Positions 2,366-23,140 of a stretch of 25,336 nt of DNA are shown here, piece after piece. The number at the start of each line of letters is the position of its first letter. Within the stretch, counting starts at the first letter, position 1. Both the position numbers and the translations under genes were made by a program. The notes under the pieces are model-generated. The model was not told the DNA's origin and made no database searches. It was given only the letters and a program-made list of their open reading frames with translations. Source of the stretch: a virus; the IMG/VR virus record IMGVR_UViG_3300027881_000068, positions 1 to 25,336 of that record. One strand, 5' to 3'.

Positions 2366-5300
2366 TTACTCTCCTAGTGTGGCAAACTCTGCCATCAATG
2401 AGGGATCGTTTCTGATGGCGTTGTATGCGTTCATCGCCTGATAGGCGACCATCGTCATCGTCTGATCGATTTGTAATAGCAGGTCGACCCGCTCTTCCTG
2501 TGTCATAGTGTCGTCCGACCTTATGCGACGCCGAAGCTTGTGGAGTGCGGAGAGCTGCTTCGTCCCGTCTTGCAGGATGAGAGCAGGTCCGAACTCGGGG
2601 TGGTCGCGCATGATGTCGACCAGCCTATCGGCGTTCTGAGCATGCTTGGCGTACTCCATACTGTTGAGGATCTGGGAGTCTTCCTCCCAGGCGTCATACA
2701 TGGCACGGACTGGGGCGGAGTCTGACCCCCACGGTTCCGAACCATACAGTCCACCCAGACCGGGGTGATCTGTCCAGTCGCTAACATGACTGGGGCGCTC
2801 GGGGAAAATACCGAGCGACTGCGCGCCGAGGTCGGCCCATTTCATGACCATACCGCCGACTGATCCAGTATACGCCCTCACCAGGTAGCCAGCCTGAATG
2901 GGGTTAATTCCTAGCTTACCTAGCGTAACAGCGTTGATACCCTTGGCTAGGTACCTCTCTATGGGAGAGGTGGTCTCGGTGTAAACATCGTCCGGGTGTA
3001 GCCCTGCCATGTGAAGACGGGGCGGGACGATAGGTGCATCAAAAAAGGTGTCGTAGTTTGCCTCAATACTGGCCACAGGCTTCAAGATCTGGGGCATGAT
3101 CTGCGCTATCGCTGTACCTGGTTTCTTGGGGACGGCGTAGCGTGCGACCGAGTTGGTACTGGCGTAGTCTGCCAGCTGGTCACGTACATAGTCCATCCAG
3201 GGGAGGCCTTTTAGCAGGGGGTCACCGTCGATGCGGTCCTCTACTGCTATTGGTCGTCCTCCTTCGTCCAGTCCTGACATGCCCATGGTAAGAGCAGCCA
3301 GGGTACCCACCCCAGCCGGTCCCATGCCTTGCTTAGCATCGAACATAGATTCCTGAAATTTGTCTCGTACTTCACGGGTACTCCCTCCTGGCCAGAGCAT
3401 TTCCTCCATGGACTTCACCGCACCTGGGTCGTTGACTGCCAAGAAGTCCATCATCTTGTGGATAGATAGTCCGAACACGCCATTGATTGTACCTAGCGGG
3501 CGTGGGATGCGGCCGAACTTCTTGTACTCCTCGTTAAATCCGAACGGGTGCAGGTACAGATCCTTCTCGATCTGCCCCTTGGCCTGGTAGTCAGGGTTGT
3601 CAAAGTTCAGGTACCAGTTGGCCAGGGCGGGGAGTGTGATGTAAGTGAAAGCCTTGGTGGTGGTCGACAAGGGGGCGTCTTTGAAGGCCTTGCCAAAACG
3701 CCACATGTCTTGGAGCTCGGCGTTGAAGAAGGGGTACAGGCCATTGAGCGTTTCTCCGTACTTACCGTGGCGTGCAAAGTCGAGGGTGATGTTCCTGACT
3801 TCATCCACCATATCGGCGTCCCACATGATACCGTCCAGGCCATCACCTGTTCTCATCATGGCCTGCTGTTCGGGACTGATCTTACGAGCCGTTTCTAGGC
3901 GGGTGAAGAAGCCTTTGCGTTGCTCCCGCTTGCCCAGCATGCGGGCCCAGCCCGAGAACCCACCAGCAGCCTCGTCCAGGGAGCGCAGGAAGCCATACCT
4001 CTTGCCCCTCTTCGCCCTAGACACAGCCCTGGCCCCGGCGCCTACCCTGGTACCCTCCTCAAACAGCTGAGACACACGCCCCGCAAGGTTGATGAGGGGG
4101 TTGCGGTCCAGTGCGGACTCTTGACGGAGGCGCTTAGTTTTGTATGACTGCGCTGAGCCTCTCACCCTGGCGCTGATGGTTTTGGCTATGTTACCTTCGG
4201 ACCTAGCGTCAGCTAGGAAGGCCTTTCCGGTTTGCCGCATACCTCCCAAGTCTGGGTCGTGGAGGATCTTGCCATAGTCCGAGATCTTGGCGCCAGCTTG
4301 GTTCAGATTGAGAGCGAAATTCTCTCCATTCTTCCCCATGTAGTTGCTAACTTCGTCAGACTGACCACCACCGTAGTGACGGTACGCCTGATACACCGGG
4401 GAGTCGGTGGCGATATGGTACAGACCACGGAACCAGTCCGTCACCGGGACGTATCCATACTTGGAGAGAGCAGCGGCCATGAACTGGTCACGCATTGGAT
4501 TACGTACGATGAAGGACAGTCCGAGGACGGTCATCTTACGGAACAGGCCGGTTGCCTTGCTAGAATATTTCAACATGCCGCTGAGCACGTTCATGGATGC
4601 CGGGTTGAGGGACTGCATGGCGATCACCATACCGGGATCGTCGAACAGGTAGCCCACCCTCTCTACGCTACCGTCTGCCTGCTTGGCAAAGGACACCATG
4701 CCGTTCTCGGGGGTGATCCTCTGCATGCGAGCCACGGCCTTAGCGTCAGTGATCCTGCGCACACCTTGCAACATGCCCATGTCTGTCGTGGTTTCGATAG
4801 CTTCACCGAGCAGATTGCGGACACGCTGCCGGTTGGCCCACTTGTGGATGGCCACCGAGCGACGCATCATAACAGGCATAGGATCTTCGATCATGCGGCT
4901 GACGTCGGTGCCTAGGCCATGCTTCCGCCTGGCGAGAGGGGTCGGATCGGAAGGTAGGCCCTTGCCGTGCTTGGCCTTCTCAGCGATCATACGCCCTGCA
5001 TCGTCTGCCGCGTCGAGGTCAGCGACGAACTCGTGACCCATCAGGTCGCGGAGGAAGTCCTTGTCTGCACGGCTGTATGGGGCATAGTTGTCACCCAATA
5101 GCTTCACCATGCGGTCATAGCCCTTTTGGTCTACGCCGCCCACGTCCAAGATGGTGTCGATGGAGGCCCTGCGATACCAGTCACGCTGCGCATCTACGCG
5201 CTTGACCATCTCTTCGAACTGCCCAGTACCGCGGTACAGGTTCTCAATCCGGGCCTCAGCTTCTTGGATGAACTTGATGTCTGCGGGGGTGAAGTCGACG

Positions 5301-7453
5301 ATGGACTCGCCGGCGGCTTCCGCTATCTTCTGTGCCTCAGCAAAGTTGCCCTTCGCGTGGCCCATAAAGAGGTTGAATTTGGGGATCAACGTAGCGGTAG
5401 ACTGATTGTAGGCCATCCAGGCCATGGCGTCCTCTACGAAATCACCGTCCACACCCTGCCATAGGGACTGCATGCCGGGACCGGTGCTCTGTGCGACGTG
5501 TACACCGTCAGGTCCTTTGACCCAGTTGACAGTGTCAGCTACCAGCGGGCTAGTGGCCATGTCCTCACCAGATCGCATATGGTTGACCAGCATATCCATC
5601 TCTTTACCCTTGCCGATGGATCGAGCTGCCTTTACGGGTTTGGAGTACCTATCAAACCAGTTGGCCTGAAAGGCTTTACCAAAACGCCGGATGCGCCCCA
5701 TGCCGGTTTCATTCTTGACGGGGGCCATAGAAAGGATGAACTGCTTGCGGTCCTCTCGGACCATGCCCTTGGCATCTATCAGATTCTTGACCACATCATC
5801 TGCTGCGTCGGCGTCATCCAGGGTTTTTACCAGGAGCTTACGCATGGCAGGCAGGTGCCCTGCGACGTCCTCCCCCTTCTCTAAGGCGTTGATGGCCTTG
5901 ATGAGGGGTATGGCCTGCACACCGGCTTTTACGCCCTTAATGGCTTTGCCTACGGCGAAGCTGATGCCCACAGCGTAGGCCGTGGATGATCCGGTCGCAC
6001 GGGCGAGCTCACCGGCCGTGACGGGCCCTAGGAGGGGAATGTCCCACACTCTGGCATCAGGGTTGAAATCACCTGTGACATAGTCTGCCTGTGTCTGAGT
6101 CCAACGTTCGTTGAGCTGGTCTGCCTTCTGGTGGATCTCAGACTTGACTCGCTCTTCATCCTCGGGGTTCAGCTTGCCATTGATCCAGCCGTAGAGATCT
6201 TCTGGCATCATAGCCAGCTCTACGAGCTCACGAGTAGCCGCTGTTCCACCCGCCCTGATAAGGCCCACGTCCTCGACACCGTCGTAGGTAGTGGTACCAC
6301 CGGTCAGGTTGGGGCGTGATAGATCTATGGCGGCGCGCTGGTTGGTGTTAATGAATACCTTGCCGAGAGGGCGCCCATACTTGCCCCGCCACTCATCACC
6401 CTTACCAGTGATGGTGACCTGGGTGCCAGGCTGCACTTTACTACGCAGGTCCTCGGCGGCTGCTGTGCCTTCCGGGGTAGCGAGTGGGCCACGAGACTCC
6501 TCAGTGTTGATAGCGGCGAACCGAACGTCGCGCTCCTCACCTGTACCCATCTCGATAACGCGCACAGTGTCAGCGTCTATGACCTCTTTGATACGGGCCT
6601 TGTACTGGATGGGGTAGTCTGACTCGACTTGGTTGCCGAATACATCTTCTTCGGTGCCAGCATAGGGGGATCCTTCAACCACTCGGGAGGGGGTGAGCGA
6701 GGGTAACCCCCCATGCTGAGCGACGAATTCTGAGAAAGCCTGTGACCCTATTTTGAGATCTAGGTCTTGTGCGGCCAGGCTGACATCGAAGGTGCGTACT
6801 GGTCCTGGGTTCTCCGTCAGGATTGCTTCGTCTTGCAACTCCGACGTTGCCATCAAATTGTTGAATGCCTGATCCGCCCCGCCGACTGACTTGGACGGGG
6901 TGCTCATGAAGCGGTCGAAGGCTAGGCCAGCCTGGCCTTGACCGACAGGTTTATCACTTCCGAGCAGCCGGGACAACGCAGCATCAGCTCCACTTCTGTC
7001 TCCCCCTCCACTGGATAGAAGAGAGGGATCCCTCTCCTCCACAGGTGGTAAGACATAGCGTTCGTTGAAGCGTTTCCGGTATGCGGTGGGCTCGTCCCAA
7101 TCGAATGCTCCTTTACGGTCGACATTGCCCATACCCGCGTTGTACGCAGAGAGGGCTGTGTCTAGGTCGTTAGGGTAGCGATCGATCAGTTGACGCATGT
7201 ACTGCGCCTGGGCATGGATGTTCTTGTCGGGATCGAAGAAGTCTTCTTCTGTGTGCAGACCGAATTCCGCACCGGTGGCTGGCATGAACTGAGCAATACC
7301 ACGAGCCCCCGCGGGCGAAACCGCGCGGGGGTTGAAGTTGCTCTCGATGCTGGCCTGGGTGCGGAGAATGCCAGGGTCTATCCCGTACCTTGCGCCGTAC
7401 CGCTGAAAAGCAGCGTCATACGGCGTGGGATTGTAACCATAGAGTGGTGCCAT
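2366..7453 (-). CDS. Giant ejection protein: lytic transglycosylase + SNase-like nuclease + LPD38-like region (T7 gp16-like)
   Basis: A 1695-residue protein, the largest in the window. Residues about 10-130 are an SLT/Goose-lysozyme-type lytic transglycosylase: catalytic E37 in ASIESNFNPRAVS, then GARGIAQFMPAT and ALSAYNAG. Residues about 281-400 look like a staphylococcal-nuclease domain: VIDADTVRV (D293, D295, T296), R311 and the stretch INTEE at the metal and phosphate-binding site, and KYGR with R361, which matches Arg87 of SNase. The rest is long and helical; a segment near residue 985 (FIVRNPMRDQF) and about 1110-1290 (LYPFFNAELQDMWRFG) match large polyvalent protein-associated domain LPD38. 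By position and architecture it is the equivalent of T7 gp16, ejected to locally open peptidoglycan and conduct DNA. The embedded nuclease is the unusual part. It abuts the upstream gene without a gap. Confidence 0.88.
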   Translation of the reverse strand: MAPLYGYNPTPYDAAFQRYGARYGIDPGILRTQASIESNFNPRAVSPAGARGIAQFMPATGAEFGLHTEEDFFDPDKNIHAQAQYMRQLIDRYPNDLDTALSAYNAGMGNVDRKGAFDWDEPTAYRKRFNERYVLPPVEERDPSLLSSGGGDRSGADAALSRLLGSDKPVGQGQAGLAFDRFMSTPSKSVGGADQAFNNLMATSELQDEAILTENPGPVRTFDVSLAAQDLDLKIGSQAFSEFVAQHGGLPSLTPSRVVEGSPYAGTEEDVFGNQVESDYPIQYKARIKEVIDADTVRVIEMGTGEERDVRFAAINTEESRGPLATPEGTAAAEDLRSKVQPGTQVTITGKGDEWRGKYGRPLGKVFINTNQRAAIDLSRPNLTGGTTTYDGVEDVGLIRAGGTAATRELVELAMMPEDLYGWINGKLNPEDEERVKSEIHQKADQLNERWTQTQADYVTGDFNPDARVWDIPLLGPVTAGELARATGSSTAYAVGISFAVGKAIKGVKAGVQAIPLIKAINALEKGEDVAGHLPAMRKLLVKTLDDADAADDVVKNLIDAKGMVREDRKQFILSMAPVKNETGMGRIRRFGKAFQANWFDRYSKPVKAARSIGKGKEMDMLVNHMRSGEDMATSPLVADTVNWVKGPDGVHVAQSTGPGMQSLWQGVDGDFVEDAMAWMAYNQSTATLIPKFNLFMGHAKGNFAEAQKIAEAAGESIVDFTPADIKFIQEAEARIENLYRGTGQFEEMVKRVDAQRDWYRRASIDTILDVGGVDQKGYDRMVKLLGDNYAPYSRADKDFLRDLMGHEFVADLDAADDAGRMIAEKAKHGKGLPSDPTPLARRKHGLGTDVSRMIEDPMPVMMRRSVAIHKWANRQRVRNLLGEAIETTTDMGMLQGVRRITDAKAVARMQRITPENGMVSFAKQADGSVERVGYLFDDPGMVIAMQSLNPASMNVLSGMLKYSSKATGLFRKMTVLGLSFIVRNPMRDQFMAAALSKYGYVPVTDWFRGLYHIATDSPVYQAYRHYGGGQSDEVSNYMGKNGENFALNLNQAGAKISDYGKILHDPDLGGMRQTGKAFLADARSEGNIAKTISARVRGSAQSYKTKRLRQESALDRNPLINLAGRVSQLFEEGTRVGAGARAVSRAKRGKRYGFLRSLDEAAGGFSGWARMLGKREQRKGFFTRLETARKISPEQQAMMRTGDGLDGIMWDADMVDEVRNITLDFARHGKYGETLNGLYPFFNAELQDMWRFGKAFKDAPLSTTTKAFTYITLPALANWYLNFDNPDYQAKGQIEKDLYLHPFGFNEEYKKFGRIPRPLGTINGVFGLSIHKMMDFLAVNDPGAVKSMEEMLWPGGSTREVRDKFQESMFDAKQGMGPAGVGTLAALTMGMSGLDEGGRPIAVEDRIDGDPLLKGLPWMDYVRDQLADYASTNSVARYAVPKKPGTAIAQIMPQILKPVASIEANYDTFFDAPIVPPRLHMAGLHPDDVYTETTSPIERYLAKGINAVTLGKLGINPIQAGYLVRAYTGSVGGMVMKWADLGAQSLGIFPERPSHVSDWTDHPGLGGLYGSEPWGSDSAPVRAMYDAWEEDSQILNSMEYAKHAQNADRLVDIMRDHPEFGPALILQDGTKQLSALHKLRRRIRSDDTMTQEERVDLLLQIDQTMTMVAYQAMNAYNAIRNDPSLMAEFATLGE

Positions 7454-8602
7454 TTATCGTCCTTGCAGTTTTGCGATGATTTGATCTTTCTGCTCAGGGG
7501 TATAGGAACCCCAGTGTTGCTTAATGTCATCGGGTGCGTTGGCGGGTGGGCCCGCTGACCCAACGCCCTGCTCCCCGGCTGCGGCTATCTCCTCCTTAGT
7601 CAAGCCCTCTGCGAGCGAGCGTAAGGCGGCTTCGCTGGTGATCTGGGGGAACTTCTTGCGTGCAGCCGCCATCCTAGCCGCATCGTCTGCGCCTTTGGCC
7701 TGCTGCTTCACGTCGGCCTTCCGAGTCTCTTCGGTGATGCGGTCCTGGTTGCGGAACTGGTTCCACCCAGTCTCGTCCAACCACTCGTCACCGACCTTGT
7801 AGTATCGACCGTCGTCACGAGTCTCGGTCTCGTAGTAGTTACCCTTACTGTCGCGGGAGTAGCTGCTCTGACCCCGCCCGTAGAGGGCCTCTTGCCTTTC
7901 TGCGTCGGACATGCCAGCTAGGACATCTGCCTGGTGCTCCTGCACAGTCTGGCCCTTGCCGAGCTCCTTGTAGCCTTGGAGCATCTGCATGCGCTCAATC
8001 TCTCTCTGACGCTTCAACTCTTCGAAGGGAAGCTGAGCGTTCGCAGCGGCCATGCCGGGAGCCGAGGCGCCCATGCCACCAGCGATGCTGAACGGGTTGG
8101 CACCGAATCCTTGTGCGATGCTGGCCCAAAAATTGTTCTGTTGGTCGGCACGCAGGGCGTCATCCATTTGGAGAGTCTGGGTGTCATACGACCTGTTGAA
8201 ATCGCCCAGGGGACTACGATCCACCGAGCTGTCAATCATCCCGGGTGGTACCGTTGGGCTTACCTGGCTGGGGTCTACCCCACCCTCTGGGAACCCGATC
8301 CCCAGATTGGGGAGCTGGGCAGGAGGGGGAGGTATAGGTATGTCGGCGGGCGCTGGTCCAGCCGTCATCGGACCCTGTGGCCCCATAGGCTCGTTGAACG
8401 GCCCGGCCGGTGCTACCCGACTAGGATCGTATGGAGAAGCCGGGGCAATTGGCATCGGCATGGGCACGCCTTGGGGCGGCTGGTTAATGGGCTGTGGCAT
8501 TGGCGCGCTGGGTCCGCCGAATGGACCCGGTCTCAAATGTGGAGCGATCTGCTGCAAGAGGCCCATGATGCCGCCAAATGACGGTGCCTGTCCTCCGAAC
8601 AT
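7454..8602 (-). CDS. Pro-rich, coiled virion protein (T7 gp15-position ejection protein)
   Basis: A 382-residue protein. The N-terminal 130 residues are Pro, Gly and Met rich with runs such as MPMPIAP and IPIPPPP and look disordered. From about residue 145 it becomes helical and charged (PFEELKRQREIERMQMLQGY) with an aromatic patch (GNYYETETRDDGRYYKVGDEW), and it ends in a Lys/Glu-rich helix. No enzymatic motif is seen. The ATG overlaps the upstream stop by one base (TAATG), and the next gene starts directly after its own stop. Its slot between a Gly-rich protein and the transglycosylase matches T7 gene 15, an internal core protein that is ejected. That assignment rests on gene order, not on sequence similarity. 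Confidence 0.65.
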   Translation of the reverse strand: MFGGQAPSFGGIMGLLQQIAPHLRPGPFGGPSAPMPQPINQPPQGVPMPMPIAPASPYDPSRVAPAGPFNEPMGPQGPMTAGPAPADIPIPPPPAQLPNLGIGFPEGGVDPSQVSPTVPPGMIDSSVDRSPLGDFNRSYDTQTLQMDDALRADQQNNFWASIAQGFGANPFSIAGGMGASAPGMAAANAQLPFEELKRQREIERMQMLQGYKELGKGQTVQEHQADVLAGMSDAERQEALYGRGQSSYSRDSKGNYYETETRDDGRYYKVGDEWLDETGWNQFRNQDRITEETRKADVKQQAKGADDAARMAAARKKFPQITSEAALRSLAEGLTKEEIAAAGEQGVGSAGPPANAPDDIKQHWGSYTPEQKDQIIAKLQGR

Positions 8603-15974: not shown

Positions 15975-17066
15975 TTACGCTACGGTGCTGGCTGCGGCGT
16001 ACGTGGAAATCACGATGGTCGCAAACGGCAACGAGTTGAACTGGGTCTGTTTGATTCCGCCCAGGAAGCCGGCGGCGACGCCGTACTCTCTGTCGTAGTC
16101 AAACTGCTTCTCAACCCAACGGAAACGCCGAGGCGTTCCACCGAGTCTTCCCCATCCCATCACTGCCGACTGCGCACCGCAGAAGATCGCTCTTCGGGTA
16201 CTGGCAACATCAACGCCAGTCGATGAGTTCTGACCGAGGGGTACTCGGCTGTTCTCAACGAGCAGGACGTTGTTATAGACGCCTAGGGCGCCAGTGATGA
16301 TCGGGTTGTCTTTATAACCTCCACCTTCGATGATGTCCCTATTGATGGTCTCCCAGCGGGTGCCATTGGCACGAAGCTGTGAGGTCTGGTAGGGATGAAT
16401 GAAGCACACGTACAGCGGTTGCGAGAAGCCAGCGATACGAGCCGGTCGAATGGCGGGAGAGATGGTCTTAGCACTCTCTACCGCAATGTCGAGCAGGTCG
16501 AGGTCGAAGGTGTCGCCTGTGCTGTCGAGGTCTTCATCAGCACCCGTACCTGGTGTTTCACCAGATAGGAAGTGGGTGCCAGCCGAGACTGCCTGGGGGT
16601 CGAGGGGCGTGTTATGCCCAGCCAGGACGCCCGTGGTACCACTCCGACCAGCAAGCTGGTTGAAAAGAGCGGTATCCCACGCGTTGGAGAGCTGATCCGC
16701 AAGAGCGGCCTTCGCCTCGTCGCGCATGTCAAAATTGACACGCTGACGGTCGATGACGTTCTTGAAGCGGACAGCGTCCACAACTTCGTCGATGGTGAAA
16801 GTCATGTTGTAAATGGTAAGAGTCTGCTCATTACCCTCTACGGCGTCGGAGCTGGACTTGGGAGTGCTGGTCAGCTGCATACGCAGACCGATGGTATCCG
16901 TGTCGCCCGGCTTGCTGGACAGATTGTCCTTCCACTGAACGAGGGAATCACTCCGTTTGCCAACCAGTCCAGACCATGAGATCTTTTTCAAGACCTCAGC
17001 TTCTAGACCTTCCGACCACTGCTGGGGTACCAGAGCATGACTAGTACTAAAACCTTGTACGGCCAT
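15975..17066 (-). CDS. Major capsid protein, N4-gp56 family (HK97 fold)
   Basis: A 363-residue protein. Hallmarks of the N4-gp56 type are HALVPQQWSEGLEAEVLKK near the start, the GDTDTIGLRMQLTSTPKSS segment, DEVVDAVRFKNVIDRQRVNF, and WDTALFNQL after a helical arm. A later YVCFIHPYQTSQLRANGTRW stretch is followed by GGGYKDNPIITGALGVYNNV, and the protein ends in strands LPFATIVISTYAAA. The length is normal for the family. It self-assembles into the icosahedral shell around the scaffold. The start ATG 17066 is preceded by AAAGGA; spacing is somewhat long (about 10). A structured 154-base leader separates it from the upstream small gene. Confidence 0.9.
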   Translation of the reverse strand: MAVQGFSTSHALVPQQWSEGLEAEVLKKISWSGLVGKRSDSLVQWKDNLSSKPGDTDTIGLRMQLTSTPKSSSDAVEGNEQTLTIYNMTFTIDEVVDAVRFKNVIDRQRVNFDMRDEAKAALADQLSNAWDTALFNQLAGRSGTTGVLAGHNTPLDPQAVSAGTHFLSGETPGTGADEDLDSTGDTFDLDLLDIAVESAKTISPAIRPARIAGFSQPLYVCFIHPYQTSQLRANGTRWETINRDIIEGGGYKDNPIITGALGVYNNVLLVENSRVPLGQNSSTGVDVASTRRAIFCGAQSAVMGWGRLGGTPRRFRWVEKQFDYDREYGVAAGFLGGIKQTQFNSLPFATIVISTYAAASTVA

Positions 17067-17462: not shown

Positions 17463-18536
17463 CTACGTGACGGTTATACGACCAGTGCGGCCCAGGCGTT
17501 CAAAGGCGTCAGGGTCGTCCATGAATATTTGCAACCGCTTCTCTGAGGGGACAGTCGAAAAGAACTGAGCTGCCGTCATCTCACCCGTGGTGGCTGAGTC
17601 GTTGTTGCCCGCGGAGGAGTCGGGGATTTGTCCTACACCTTGTGATGCGAGGCCCTGCTTGATGCGACCCAGGTCTATCTGCTGGGTGCCCGGGGACTGC
17701 TGCTGGGCGGGGACGACAGCCTCGTTGCCGGACTGGTAGCCCCACTGCTTGGCCATGGCGTACACCTGCTCAGGCACGCTGCCTCCACGCTCCACCTGTT
17801 CGCGGACGAGGTACATCGTCTCTTCTGCGACCATCTGCTTAGCCTGGTTGGCGTCATACCCGCGCCCGGTGTACATCTTTTCCCGAGCGTCACGTGCGAA
17901 GTTATAGGCATCGTAGTAGTCGGGCTGAGACTCTATGAAGGTTGCTTCCTGCTGCCCAACGGTGTTTTCGATGTGCTGGTGGTACTGCACCTGCTGCTGA
18001 TGAGCCTGTGCGTTGCGTGCGACGGTCTGCCGGTAGTGCTCCTGCTGCTGCTGGGCAGCGATGACGGAGTCATCAATCCGGCTCACCTGCTCTGAGATGT
18101 AGCGCACGGTCGGATCATGCATGACCTCCTCACCGTACTCTTCCAGGTCCGCCTCATAGTCCTGCATCGACTGGGCGTCTGCATCGTTCTGTGCGTTCTT
18201 CCGCTCCATCTCCATGAACATCTCACGAAGAGAGGCGATAGTGGCGCTCGACTCGGCCTTCTCGGCCCTCATCGACGCGATCTCGTTCAGGCGACCCGCT
18301 GATTCCGAGCGCACCGCGGTCAGAAGGTCCTGCATGTCGCCAGCGTTGGGGTCCACGCCCTCGTCGGGTGGATCGCCCTCTACTGCGTCGTCTGGGTCTT
18401 CCGACCCAATGATGCGCTTCGGTAGGGCAGAGGCTTCTAGGTCGATCTCCTCGTCCAAAAGCTGATCTGCCGGGTTATCATCTGTAATACCTTCTTCTTC
18501 GCTGTATGCTGCTAGATCTGCGAGATGTCTATTCAA
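17463..18536 (-). CDS. Scaffold-like protein
   Basis: A 357-residue protein. The N-terminal 70 residues are very acidic (EEEGITDDNPADQLLDEEID). A long helical coiled-coil region follows from about 70 to 200 (LNEIASMRAEKAESSATIAS, Gln-rich QQQQEHYRQTV). The C-terminus is a Gln/Ser linker, then a conserved-looking AAQFFSTVPSEKRLQIF segment. Acidic start, coiled coil and position between portal and capsid are those of phage scaffolding proteins, which direct shell assembly and are then lost. The start is a TTG at 18536 with GGGAGG upstream, overlapping the portal stop. The next in-frame ATG would cost 67 residues including the acidic segment. No protease domain is visible. Confidence 0.8.
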   Translation of the reverse strand: MNRHLADLAAYSEEEGITDDNPADQLLDEEIDLEASALPKRIIGSEDPDDAVEGDPPDEGVDPNAGDMQDLLTAVRSESAGRLNEIASMRAEKAESSATIASLREMFMEMERKNAQNDADAQSMQDYEADLEEYGEEVMHDPTVRYISEQVSRIDDSVIAAQQQQEHYRQTVARNAQAHQQQVQYHQHIENTVGQQEATFIESQPDYYDAYNFARDAREKMYTGRGYDANQAKQMVAEETMYLVREQVERGGSVPEQVYAMAKQWGYQSGNEAVVPAQQQSPGTQQIDLGRIKQGLASQGVGQIPDSSAGNNDSATTGEMTAAQFFSTVPSEKRLQIFMDDPDAFERLGRTGRITVT

Positions 18537-20526
18537 CTGGTGGTCCTCCCTCTGGCGGCATCTCAGGCGGCATAGCCTGCTGCTGTGCCATCATCATTGC
18601 CATTTCGTCTTGCCCCTCGGGTGGCAGTCCACTCTGCTGTTGCATGCCCATCTGGGCCATCGCAATTTGCATTTCCATCTTCTGGATAGCGGCCTGCATT
18701 TCCATTATCTCTTTGGCTTCTAGAAGCACACGCTGAAAATCAGAGTTGATGTCAGCGGGGAAGGGGAAGTACTTAGCCAGGGTGGGAGGAATTGGCACGC
18801 CAAGTTCTAGGAGCTGCGGAATGAAGGAAGTCTCCATAATCTTGGAGAAGACTTCATGCTGCTTGCTCTTGGCTGCCACGCTCTCTTCTGCGATGACTTC
18901 GTACTGTTGGGACAGCTCGCCATCCTTGGCGGCGCCAATGAAGAGTTGTGCCTCTTCTCCGGGTCCAAGGAGCCGTTCCAACTGCTTCGGCTGTACGTAC
19001 TCTGCTACAAAGTCCAAGAGCAGGCGCCCCTGAGTTTTCTTGTAGAGACGAAGGGCGTCAAACGGTTGGGACAAAGTCACCATGTTTGAGTCCTTCACGG
19101 ACTGGACAGCGGACGCTGCCGTACGTTTCAGGTCCTGCGCCGTTCCGACACCGTACTGCTCGTTGACGCCGGATGACGTTGCGATACTGTTAATTGAGTG
19201 CGCAAGCAGTGTCTCGATCCCGCTCATGCTCGTGTTGTTGGGAATGACCTCGTACTTGGGCCTCGGGGTTTGCAGCTTACCGGTGTCAACTTCGATCATA
19301 CCGGTTGCCTTAGCCCACTCCTTCTTCGCTGATTTCAGGTTGGTGAAGAGGTCGGCCTCGTACATAATGGCACCCTTGGGGTTAGACGCCCACTGGTGTA
19401 CTGCGTGCGAGAAGAACTTGTTAGCGTACCGCTGGGGGTCACGCATGGAACGCATGAGACCGAAGTGGTACAGGCGCTGGGGGTCTTTCCAATCTTCGAA
19501 ACAGGTGATGAACTGATATGGGAAGGTGGCCAGGTTGACCTCATCATCCGTGATGGTGTGGTTCCCAGCGTGGTAGGAGCGCTTGATCTGGGTAGTGGGA
19601 AAGTCCTCCACGTAGTCCACAGCCGGCATGGGTAGCTGGCTTGGATCGACACCCATCATCATAGCCTCTTGTATCTGAGCTTGAAGGGTCATGGTGCGGA
19701 CCATTTCTAACGCTTCCTGGGTCTTGTCTTTGGGTACGACGTGGTCTGAACCGTCAGGGAGGAAGATGCGGGTACCGTACCTGCGTTCTTTGCGGTACAT
19801 CTCCCACACTCTGATGCGGCTACGGCGTGGGTCGTAGTACTTAGAAGTCTTGTTGTGGAAATACGTGTGACGCGGGTCCTCTACCTCTCGCCCCATAATA
19901 CGGGCCATGAGCCCTCGTCCCTGTGAGATCTCGGCGTTGCCGAGCTCCTTCACATCTTCGAAGTTGTCCCGTCCGAAGCGACTGATGATCTCATCTTCGT
20001 CCACCCAGCGGTCACGCATGACATAGCGAGCGTCCAAGTAGTTGGGCTTGACAGACGTTGGATCCCAGCCCATTTCCCAAATGGGAACGCGGTCCAGGTG
20101 AATGCTGCCGTCCTTGTCACCTTCGAAGTCCATGTAGAACTCGGTGACACCAACGCCGCAGATTAGGGCCGACTGAAAGGCTGCCGACTCTGCATTTTCA
20201 AAGTTGCCTCGGTCCCTTGCCCACTTGTAGACCTTGTTGCCAGCTTCGGAGAACGGAACGTCGACGTCATCGAGATCTGCGTCTCTGGGGAGAAACTTTG
20301 GTTCATAGCGATTCGTGATCTCTGCACCAGCAACCGAGGCAATGATTGGCCTGGTGCGGTCAAAGGTGAGGGCTGGGCGCCCCTCGCTGTCCAGGCGCTC
20401 CTTGTCCTTCTTTTCCCATTGGTCCAAGGCTGCGAACTGAAAGTCCATGTTGACGTCGATCTGCCAGTCATAGAGGTAGGACGTGACGTCGTCTAGGCGA
20501 TCTTTGAAGTCTGAGAATTCAATCAT
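18529..20526 (-). CDS. Portal protein, P22 type
   Basis: A 665-residue protein forming the dodecameric DNA entry ring. The N-terminus (YDWQIDVNMDFQFAALDQW, then RPALTFDRTRPIIASVAGAE and ITNRYEPKFLPRD) is the typical P22-portal start. Next comes a FQSALICGVGVTEFYMDF segment, followed by VPIWEMGWDPTS and a long core with YHFGLMRSMRDPQRYANKFF. The C-terminus (about 610-665) is Met/Gln rich and likely a helical barrel or disordered tail. It overlaps the large terminase gene by ATGA, which couples their translation; the motor docks on this ring. The length is in the usual range for the family. Confidence 0.92.
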   Translation of the reverse strand: MIEFSDFKDRLDDVTSYLYDWQIDVNMDFQFAALDQWEKKDKERLDSEGRPALTFDRTRPIIASVAGAEITNRYEPKFLPRDADLDDVDVPFSEAGNKVYKWARDRGNFENAESAAFQSALICGVGVTEFYMDFEGDKDGSIHLDRVPIWEMGWDPTSVKPNYLDARYVMRDRWVDEDEIISRFGRDNFEDVKELGNAEISQGRGLMARIMGREVEDPRHTYFHNKTSKYYDPRRSRIRVWEMYRKERRYGTRIFLPDGSDHVVPKDKTQEALEMVRTMTLQAQIQEAMMMGVDPSQLPMPAVDYVEDFPTTQIKRSYHAGNHTITDDEVNLATFPYQFITCFEDWKDPQRLYHFGLMRSMRDPQRYANKFFSHAVHQWASNPKGAIMYEADLFTNLKSAKKEWAKATGMIEVDTGKLQTPRPKYEVIPNNTSMSGIETLLAHSINSIATSSGVNEQYGVGTAQDLKRTAASAVQSVKDSNMVTLSQPFDALRLYKKTQGRLLLDFVAEYVQPKQLERLLGPGEEAQLFIGAAKDGELSQQYEVIAEESVAAKSKQHEVFSKIMETSFIPQLLELGVPIPPTLAKYFPFPADINSDFQRVLLEAKEIMEMQAAIQKMEMQIAMAQMGMQQQSGLPPEGQDEMAMMMAQQQAMPPEMPPEGGPPVE

Positions 20527-22145
20527 GCTGATTGCCAGGTCTCCTCTTCCTTGTCATCCTCGTGCAGCATCTTGCGAAAGGCGTCGACGCTCTTGCCATA
20601 GTGCTGTGGCCGAGGCCAGGGCAAGGGCATGTCACGCTCTGCGATTCTGGACATGCTGTCTAGCGTGTCCTTCTGCATCGTGGTCGGGAAGTGAGAGTAC
20701 TCCTCCTTTATGAATTGGTTGACGAGATCCACGATCTGCCCGCTCTCTCGCTCTTGGTAGTGAATCTTCTGGGGCAAGTAGACCCTGCCGGCTGCGAAGA
20801 GCGGGATCAGGCGCCCGATGCGGTCGTCCTTACTGAGGGAACCGCCCACCTCTTTAATGTCGAAGTAAAAGGCGCGCTGGTTCTGGACGTACTGGATGTG
20901 CTCGATGTCCGACTGCATGGAATACTTTTCGTAGCGCACTTCTAGTGGCTGCCACTGTGCAACCAGGTCGAACAAGACTTCTGTACGCTCATGCAGATTA
21001 AGCCGGTCAACAACCATGTCCACAACAAAGTAGTTCTTGTCACGTCCCAGAGCCCAGACAACGAACGCAGTCTTGCTGCTGTCCTTCTTCTTCTCGGCAG
21101 CTGGGTCAACGGTGATGATGATGTTGGCTTGTCTGACAATGTTGTTAGTCGTCCCTGTGTAGAATCTCAGCCACTCCTGCTTAAAGCCAGCAGTCTGGCC
21201 AGCACTCGGATCGCAAAGCATTTGAATGCCGAAGGTTGTTGGGCCCTGTTGCTTCTCTTGGGCGGATAGGTAAGCTTTTGAAAAGAGAACCGGTTTCGTT
21301 TTATCATGGACGAGGCTAATCGGGAGGCCTGTCTTTGCCTCGATTTGCGACTCATCCTGGATAATTTCATAGCATGGATATAGTCTGGGAAGGATTCCGC
21401 GTTCTGCCATATGATGATAGGTGTCTCCATAGGCATAGAACGTACCGATGTAGTAGCGCTTGCACCCGGGCATTCCAACATTGAGCGACAGTTCCCATCT
21501 TTCATTCGTCTTCTCCACCATGTCGGGCGTGTTGACGTTCTGCTCGTTTACAGCATCATCGTAGATGAAGTGGCTGACTCGATGCCCCGTGAAGGAGGTG
21601 TCGATGAGGCCAAAGCCGCGGACCGTACTGTCTTTCAGATTGAGAGAGCGCTGTATGACGAAGCCCTTCTCAATGGTCCAGCGTGGTGCGTCGCGCCTTG
21701 CGTCCTTCCAAAAGCGATCGGGAAACAGGGTGCGGAGGAGCTCGTTGGATTCCAATTCGTACTTGATCTGTCCTACAAAATCGTCGGCAACACCCTTGGT
21801 AACGGAAAATATACCAATAGTGATATTAGGATTCTGGATCATGGATAAGATCGAGAAGCCAAAGGTGGAAATTGTGCTCTTGCCGTGAGCTCTGGCCCAG
21901 ATATTGAGCCGGTCCTCCGAATCGAACTGTACTTCGCGGCAGCGCTCAAAGAGCCACTGATTGTCCCAAAAGGACTTGGTCTTTGTCTCGTCCTGCCAGT
22001 CACGAGTAGTGAGAATGTAGCGCAACAGGTAGTACAGGTCTGAGCTGGCCATCAGGCGCATCATGTGTGCGCGCTTGTTGTCGTCGACAGAAGAGAGAAG
22101 CTTTTCTAATTCTTCATAGTCAGCCAGAGTCTTAGGAAGGTTCAT
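20523..22145 (-). CDS. terL: Terminase large subunit
   Basis: A 540-residue packaging motor from ATG 22145. The ATPase domain has Walker A at 84-91 (ARAHGKST), Walker B at 192-197 (HFIYDD) and a coupling segment near 233 (IGTFY). The nuclease domain of RNase H type has D347 (IITVDPAA), E406 (VRYEKYS) and D493 or D496 (MQKDTLDS). It cuts concatemeric DNA and pumps it into the prohead through the portal. An earlier ATG at 22223 would add 26 Cys/Arg-rich residues overlapping the upstream gene, whereas 22145 has a GGGGG-type ribosome site eight bases away. Two RNA hairpins lie just before this start (22160-22198). The stop overlaps the portal start. Confidence 0.93.
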   Translation of the reverse strand: MNLPKTLADYEELEKLLSSVDDNKRAHMMRLMASSDLYYLLRYILTTRDWQDETKTKSFWDNQWLFERCREVQFDSEDRLNIWARAHGKSTISTFGFSILSMIQNPNITIGIFSVTKGVADDFVGQIKYELESNELLRTLFPDRFWKDARRDAPRWTIEKGFVIQRSLNLKDSTVRGFGLIDTSFTGHRVSHFIYDDAVNEQNVNTPDMVEKTNERWELSLNVGMPGCKRYYIGTFYAYGDTYHHMAERGILPRLYPCYEIIQDESQIEAKTGLPISLVHDKTKPVLFSKAYLSAQEKQQGPTTFGIQMLCDPSAGQTAGFKQEWLRFYTGTTNNIVRQANIIITVDPAAEKKKDSSKTAFVVWALGRDKNYFVVDMVVDRLNLHERTEVLFDLVAQWQPLEVRYEKYSMQSDIEHIQYVQNQRAFYFDIKEVGGSLSKDDRIGRLIPLFAAGRVYLPQKIHYQERESGQIVDLVNQFIKEEYSHFPTTMQKDTLDSMSRIAERDMPLPWPRPQHYGKSVDAFRKMLHEDDKEEETWQSA

Positions 22146-22644
22146 CTGGCGTCCCCCGCGTCTCGTCCCGAGACGGTGGCCGTTCCTCGGAAGGAACGCC
22201 CCACATTTTGCGCATGTGTGCACAACAGGCGGCCATGCGACGAGGAGCTAATAGGTCCTGGGTCCCCATTGCCTCGCTATACTCCGCGATGTTACACGAG
22301 AGAGGTCGAGAGGAATATATCGAGCATCGTGTTCCGCAGAGTTTACTGCAACTCTTACCATCTGAATCGTTGGTCCAGTGCGGGAGGTTCCACCGAACGT
22401 CCATGCAGCACGCCCCGCACTCGTTGCACTCCCAGCCCCCATCCTCGGTGATGAAATCCCCGAGATCCTGTGGATATGGATCACTCTGAATCGCCTCCTG
22501 AATCTGATACAATGGATCCAAGCTGTGCCTCTGGTGATGCAGGTGGACTAAACAGGTCTGATAGAAGGTCTCGTGCGGACCCGGTGTCTCTTTCTGTGAA
22601 CCAGTGGAGCTGGTTGACTGTGACTTCTCCCCCGACTTTGCCAT
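22132..22644 (-). CDS. YkgJ-family cysteine-cluster (Zn/Fe-chelating) protein
   Basis: A 170-residue protein. Residues 73-80 are CNECGACC, the CxxCxxCC signature. Further Cys follow at 99, 103 and 107, then the CSIYSSRPLSC stretch (107-117) and a CC pair at 140-141. CxxCGxCC plus CxIYxxRPxxC is the standard YkgJ/zinc-or-iron-chelating domain (PF03692). Cellular members bind metal but lack a settled function. Its N-terminal 54 residues are Ser, Thr and His rich and overprint the end of the small terminase gene for 164 bases. The ATG has AAGGAG four bases away. The last residues overlap the large terminase start. Placement inside the packaging module is unusual and suggests a DNA- or motor-related role, but no function is shown. 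Confidence 0.85.
   Translation of the reverse strand: MAKSGEKSQSTSSTGSQKETPGPHETFYQTCLVHLHHQRHSLDPLYQIQEAIQSDPYPQDLGDFITEDGGWECNECGACCMDVRWNLPHWTNDSDGKSCSKLCGTRCSIYSSRPLSCNIAEYSEAMGTQDLLAPRRMAACCAHMRKMWGVPSEERPPSRDETRGTPDEPS
22160..22198 (-). promoter_or_regulatory. Tandem RNA hairpins upstream of the large terminase start
   Basis: Two perfect stems lie back to back on the coding strand. CGTTCCT/AGGAACG has loop TCCG (22181-22198), and GTCTCG/CGAGAC has loop GGA (22160-22174). The second ends 14 bases before the terminase ATG at 22145, next to its ribosome-binding site. Neither is followed by a T-run, so they are not terminators. They fall in codons of the YkgJ C-terminal tail. Control of terminase translation is inferred. 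Confidence 0.45.
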
Positions 22645-23140
22645 ACTTCTCCTTCATGAGATTGGATAGAGCGAAGCGTGAAGTCGGCGCATCGTGCTCG
22701 GCCTTCTTCATCATGTTGTCCTCGATCTTCCACAGCTTCTTTTGCTGCTCCTCTTGGAAGTCGTATGCAAACTGCTCATCGTAGTCGTCGTGGTCCTTAT
22801 CGAGTGAGTTCTCTACATCGACAGCTTCCACGCCAGACTGAGAAGCAGCAGCCACCCTATCGCCTGTCCTGCGATAGAGTGCTATGAATTTCTGTTGCCA
22901 CGTAGCTCCCACTGCTACGTCTGCTTTCGCTGCGCCCGAGAGGATCCTCTCCTTGTGGATTGGATCAGACAGCACCGCGTCACACGCCTCCCGAAAAGCG
23001 TCATTTTTCTTTCGCCAGTTGTAGTAGGACTGGGTGGAGAAGCCAAGCTGGGAGCATGACTCCTTGATTCCGTATCCCTCTGCTATGAGAGCCAGGAACT
23101 CCTGGCGCAGAAGGGCCGAGTCCTTCGACTGGCGGGCCAC
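22481..23140 (-). CDS. terS: Probable terminase small subunit (HTH DNA-binding)
   Basis: A 219-residue protein. Residues about 8-50 form a helix-turn-helix (FLALIAEGYGIKESCSQLGF, then TQSYYNWRKKNDAFREAC), as in small terminases that recognise the packaging site. A basic/mixed linker follows, then an acidic helix-rich part (DYDEQFAYDFQEEQQKKLWK) and a Ser/Asp/Gly tail. It precedes the large terminase by one gene, which supports the assignment. The start is GTG 23140, overlapping the upstream stop by one base (TAGTG). No good Shine-Dalgarno is seen, so it is likely coupled to the small gene before it. A generic transcription regulator is less likely in this place. Confidence 0.75.
   Translation of the reverse strand: MARQSKDSALLRQEFLALIAEGYGIKESCSQLGFSTQSYYNWRKKNDAFREACDAVLSDPIHKERILSGAAKADVAVGATWQQKFIALYRRTGDRVAAASQSGVEAVDVENSLDKDHDDYDEQFAYDFQEEQQKKLWKIEDNMMKKAEHDAPTSRFALSNLMKEKYGKVGGEVTVNQLHWFTERDTGSARDLLSDLFSPPASPEAQLGSIVSDSGGDSE

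Follow-up and report, generated by a model that had tools for sequence, protein, structure and literature searches.

At 25,336 bases, the window analysed here makes up a whole IMG/VR virus record, and the gene of interest is a complete minus-strand ORF at 2366–7453 that encodes 1695 aa. A homologue that is 48–49% identical is encoded on contig IMGVR_UViG_3300009788_001588 (hereafter L010) and has the same order of domains: SLT (lytic transglycosylase), SNase (staphylococcal nuclease) and LPD38 (large polyvalent protein associated domain 38). The features of the locus are as follows.

2366–7453, minus strand: complete ORF, 1695 aa, in the ejection-protein position; polyvalent protein with SLT, SNase-like and LPD38 domains
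7109–7408, minus strand: lytic transglycosylase SLT domain, residues 16–115 (PF01464, E 9.2e-26; phrog_342)
7343–7345, minus strand: E37, predicted catalytic Glu of the transglycosylase; its numbering equals E37 of T7 gp16 (PMC8954989)
6335–6613, minus strand: SNase-like domain core, residues 281–373 (phrog_452, left-out HMM, AlphaFold2 model with fold search)
6569–6577, minus strand: D293, A294 and D295, equivalent to SNase D19, G20 and D21 (D21 binds Ca); the two Asp columns are kept in 64/64 and 63/64 relatives
6521–6523, minus strand: R311, equivalent to SNase R35; kept in L010 and 63/64 relatives
6506–6508, minus strand: N316, in place of the Ca ligand D40 of SNase; L010 has Asp here
6497–6499, minus strand: E319, equivalent to SNase E43, the catalytic Glu; kept in L010 and 63/64 relatives
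6371–6373, minus strand: R361 (KYGR), equivalent to SNase R87, the catalytic Arg; kept in L010 (KYDR) and 63/64 relatives
2819–3130, minus strand: LPD38, residues 1442–1545 (PF18857)
7454–8602, minus strand: upstream gene, placed like T7 gene 15; matches no family and has a same-order homologue in L010
8602–9726, minus strand: Gly-rich protein whose gene is placed like T7 gene 14; matches no family and has a same-order homologue in L010
10731–13964, minus strand: virion structural protein in the tail tubular protein B position (phrog_3287; 49% identical in L010; synteny with MW202898)
15975–17066, minus strand: major capsid protein (PF13252, E 2e-54; phrog_334)
18529–20526, minus strand: P22-like portal protein (PF16510, E 1e-71)
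20523–22223, minus strand: terminase large subunit (phrog_38, E 4e-58)
22481–23140: small terminase

An earlier note on this DNA had placed the fusion at 6254–7426 without naming a strand. The interval is correct and corresponds to residues ~10–400 of ORF 2366–7453, on the minus strand; no long ORF lies on the plus strand at 6254–7426. The N-terminal lytic transglycosylase with E37 that the note had proposed was confirmed by PF01464, which scores 90.2 bits against a cut-off of 21.3, and the protein carries the motifs IESNF (which includes E37), GIAQF and AYNAG; E37 and AYNAG are also present in L010. The LPD38 match likewise exceeds its cut-off (78.4 bits against 27). The SNase-like domain is located between these two regions and starts ~165 residues behind the transglycosylase.

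The genes in the capsid, tail-tube, gp14, gp15 and gp16 positions are co-linear with those of L010, and their order is similar in MW202898. Positions and sizes fit a T7-like order and are common to L010, but the genes in the gp14 and gp15 positions match no family, nor do most of the remaining genes between and behind the morphogenesis genes. Three other minus-strand ORFs were observed in the window. The first (1540–2196) encodes a 218-aa protein that has a zinc-metallopeptidase-like HEFAH motif, matches no family and is 48% identical in L010. The second (277–918) encodes a 213-aa protein of unassigned family that is 71% identical in L010 and is among the most conserved of the module. The third (22132–22644), which lies between the genes for the small and large terminase, encodes a protein with a cysteine cluster of the CxxCxxCC type (PF03692, sub-threshold).

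The earlier description of the protein as T7 gp16-like fits its transglycosylase, its size and where its gene lies: both proteins are very large with an N-terminal SLT domain containing the catalytic E37, and both genes come last, behind the two in the gp14 and gp15 positions. It does not hold for the remainder. The match to phrog_342 (gp16) extends over residues 8–130, that is, the transglycosylase alone, and no gp16 homology was detected beyond SLT with either a 2-sequence or a 27-member LPD38 profile, both shallow and of limited sensitivity (hhalign probability 0.1); on this value a relationship to T7 gp16 past SLT was rejected. T7 gp16 differs, too, in having no nuclease, and the window protein has an LPD38 region instead. 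The word "nuclease" is absent from the ejection-protein review PMC8954989. The window protein is an LPD38 phage polyvalent protein whose gene lies where that of gp16 would be expected.

LPD38 has been described as phage-only, and polyvalent proteins have been proposed to be early-acting injected effectors (Iyer et al. 2017, PMC5512222). With the LPD38 polyvalent proteins of that study, the window protein shares a C-terminal LPD38 region above cut-off, a large multidomain architecture, a peptidoglycan-cleaving domain and an effector-type module in the variable N-terminal part. LPD38 was present in 27 of the 27 proteins scanned (window, L010 and 25 others); SLT matches occurred in two of these and phrog_452 matches in two, the window protein and L010. 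The window protein combines multiple enzymatic or effector domains—SLT, SNase and LPD38—on one phage polypeptide. The N-terminal parts of the LPD38 relatives vary, with GGDEF in L033 and L047, a zeta toxin in L018 and, in further relatives beyond the 27, an ADP-ribosyltransferase (ART) in L226 and a helicase with a weak ART-like match in L227; the SNase domain thus sits in a region of effector-type enzyme swapping. Two of these relatives (L033:2876–11593 and L047:3308–11521) are proteins of 2700–2900 aa in which GGDEF (diguanylate cyclase) exceeds the Pfam cut-off, and an injected cyclic-nucleotide enzyme would be interesting. The zeta-toxin-like kinase occupies residues 513–680 of L018:6368–11107, and the polyvalent-type ART occupies residues 304–451 of L226:6734–11164.

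Turning to the identity of the SNase-like domain, the profile check that the earlier note had suggested gave a sub-threshold match: PF00565 aligned to residues 310–372, at 13.4 bits over the full length and 16.2 bits for the domain alone, both below the cut-off of 21. Standard annotation would therefore presumably miss the domain. The phrog_452 "endonuclease" profile matched residues 283–373 (E 1.1e-9 full length, 2.8e-11 for the domain alone). A further HMM was derived from 132 SNase ORFs on viral and bacterial contigs, reduced to 64 non-redundant sequences, with the window and L010 omitted; this left-out HMM matched residues 283–370 of the window protein at 59.7 bits (E 2e-15 in a 100,000-sequence search) and the L010 homologue at 40.3 bits.

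An AlphaFold2 model of the SNase domain (34 sequences) has a core mostly at pLDDT >85, with many residues >90, in the order strand-strand-strand-helix-strand-strand, and adopts the SNase-type OB fold, a five-stranded barrel with a helix. Its top PDB matches were staphylococcal nuclease structures (Foldseek E ~1e-5, probability 1.00). The structural overlay that the note had called for recovered the same fold: VIA-align of the model with SNase crystal structures gave Z 11–12 and an rmsd of 2.5 Å over 105 residues, with residues ~278–392 aligned. Residues ~387–410 are at pLDDT <50, so that the domain may lack the final helices of SNase or have them in changed form. A model of residues 1–480 from two sequences reached pLDDT 40 and was left out of the analysis. 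Together, phrog_452, the left-out HMM and the predicted structure settle the SNase fold, far beyond chance. The domain seen behind the transglycosylase is thus real; the note had named the lack of an SNase profile hit together with a predicted fold without the OB-fold core, or loss of the catalytic Arg in close homologues, as counting against it, and we found instead that profile and fold both match SNase and that the Arg is kept in the close homologue.

Counterparts of the SNase catalytic set (D19, D21, T22, R35, D40, E43 and R87) were assigned in the window protein from the PDB alignment, and conservation was counted over the 64 relatives. The motifs lie where they had been placed from the sequence, at D293-A-D295-T296, R311, I-N316-T-E-E319 and K-Y-G-R361. 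Residues D293, D295, T296, R311, E319 and R361 correspond to D19, D21, T22, R35, E43 and R87, respectively, columns that are invariant in the 34-sequence SNase alignment. The catalytic core of D21, R35, E43 and R87 is present in the window domain and in L010, where all listed catalytic residues are kept, with Asp at the D40 position (IDAPES) and Arg in KYDR. The usual Asp at D40 is absent from the window domain, and its INTEE motif has Glu in place of the Pro of the usual DTPE. However, D40 varies within the family (Asp in 47/64 relatives, Asn in 15/64) and is hence not a defining feature; the Asn variant of INTPE-type relatives that the note had mentioned is borne out by these counts. Metal binding may be altered by N316. 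Because the catalytic set is kept and Asn at the D40 position is common in relatives, nuclease activity is plausible, and we consider activity of some kind rather likely.

Standalone phage SNases (phrog_452; the cyanophage thermonuclease-family proteins DSL-LC02 and C48C1) contain the same domain at 31–37% identity with identical catalytic residues, but are ~120–190 aa long and unfused to virion proteins. Staphylococcal nuclease, or thermonuclease (PDB 1snd, 1ey4), shares the fold and residues D21, R35, E43 and R87 at ~18–20% identity. It differs in being a secreted single-domain enzyme and in having D40 where the window protein has Asn, and the C-terminal helices of the window domain are not confidently modelled. 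The nearest SNase relatives come from phages; in most of them the SNase core starts the protein, with no signal peptide ahead of it, and they are for that reason probably cytoplasmic. GBSV1-NSN, a candidate for an active phage SNase, was set aside because it is reported to lack homology to known nucleases.

Between the window protein and its L010 homologue, identity is 72% in SLT and 60% in SNase, compared with 34% in the inter-domain linker, 45% over residues 374–480 and 34% over residues 481–900. At the level of sequence comparison, SLT and SNase are conserved islands, which is what purifying selection on folded domains would be expected to produce. The SLT–SNase fusion has two examples among the matches listed, both on metagenome contigs (the window and L010). 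Full-length and single-sequence scans of IMG/VR gave no further fusion among the matches listed; when alignments of the SNase and LPD38 parts served as queries, the sole further fusion among the matches listed was on the L010 contig. Bacterial and archaeal genomes gave no relative with a first alignment and, with a second, at least 49 SNase loci, none in an ORF >600 aa; a search of the "phages" set with the SNase domain gave only standalone cyanophage SNases among the matches listed. These scans were pattern-limited, and the fusion may be commoner than seen, so that its rarity is provisional. SNase-like Foldseek/BFVD matches within long pieces of viral proteins may be additional fusions: A0A516LXN0_1 (983 residues, 32% identity, 2.0 Å) and A0A6J5M9K0_3, labelled "baseplate hub protein".

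We propose, with a probability of about 55%, that the locus encodes a virion-carried LPD38-type ejection protein with a working metal-dependent nuclease that is delivered with the genome. The 1695-aa product would be packaged in the virion and released at infection, as its gene position and family suggest; the N-terminal transglycosylase would open peptidoglycan during entry, and the SNase module would act as a metal- (probably Ca-) dependent nuclease that cuts nucleic acid in the newly infected cell, with host DNA or RNA, or the DNA of a rival element, as candidate targets. Since ART, zeta-toxin and GGDEF domains occur in the N-terminal part of LPD38 relatives, the SNase module is most likely another virion-delivered effector; its packaging, enzymatic activity, metal dependence, compartment and target are points that we infer. 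More tentative, and falling short of even odds, is the fuller proposal of an injected active SNase effector, the first nuclease of its superfamily known in a phage ejection or polyvalent protein, that cuts host or rival nucleic acid from the onset of infection and spares the phage's own genome. Possibly, this sparing could be achieved by metal gating or by the position of SNase in the ejection channel.

The main rival to a nuclease is a catalytically silent OB fold that would bind DNA or the ejection channel, for example guiding or holding the entering genome, without cutting. N316 in place of the Ca ligand, the unusual INTEE motif and the poorly modelled C-terminal helices fit such a role, as does the description of T7 gp16-C as DNA-binding (PMC8954989). 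An active nuclease would also be a risk to the phage's own DNA, both while packaged and while entering, and the sub-threshold PF00565 score is a further point against a working enzyme. Yet both phages, whose domains are 60% identical, retain R311, E319 and R361, none of which is needed for binding alone, and L010 has Asp at the ligand site, where Asn is in any case common among relatives; we therefore regard a non-cutting fold as unlikely.

A narrower version of the proposed virion-delivered nuclease, with which it overlaps in probability, is a Ca-gated envelope enzyme that would be off in the low-Ca cytoplasm during assembly and on in the periplasm or outside, clearing extracellular or competing DNA. 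Known SNases use millimolar Ca, and if the SNase were periplasmic, Ca dependence would hold the enzyme off during assembly. A periplasmic placement is suggested, by analogy, by the position of the module just behind a transglycosylase whose action must be periplasmic and by the periplasmic N-terminal region of T7 gp16 (residues 1–156 plus the tape at 157–228; PMC8954989). However, the shallow profiles revealed no gp16 homology beyond SLT that would support transferring the topology of gp16, and the ART, GGDEF and zeta-toxin domains of LPD38 relatives need cytoplasmic substrates; these effectors and the leaderless closest phage SNases suggest, again by analogy, a cytoplasmic placement. Periplasm and cytoplasm are near even for the module. 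Given the cytoplasm-type effectors in LPD38 relatives, the envelope or biofilm role raised in the note has no more in its favour than activity within the cell, and the Ca-gated version is doubtful.

It is quite improbable that the SNase acts late in the producing cell, in host DNA breakdown or genome processing, with its fusion to an ejection protein incidental. Standalone SNases are widespread in phages and presumably work in the producing cell, but here the domain is part of one polypeptide in both phages, with the transglycosylase before it and the LPD38 region after it, and a standalone SNase was not found in the window contig. Chance similarity or chimeric assembly, for which the sub-threshold PF00565 score and the count of two known contigs could be cited, is refuted by the left-out HMM, the SNase fold and the diverged L010 contig, whose co-linear morphogenesis module and identical architecture exclude a chimera for practical purposes.

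The component domains of the protein are known, but the open-access literature yielded no description of SNase combined with a transglycosylase in an LPD38 ejection-type protein, and no report of ejection proteins that contain an SNase or other nuclease domain; we regard the novelty as provisional. With this finding, a probable nuclease joins the effector domains known from phage polyvalent and ejection proteins, and the question arises of how a phage packs a nuclease alongside its own genome and releases it at entry. If active, the domain would be a nuclease effector that works before any phage gene expression, and would bear on early host takeover, conflict during superinfection and the evasion of defences.
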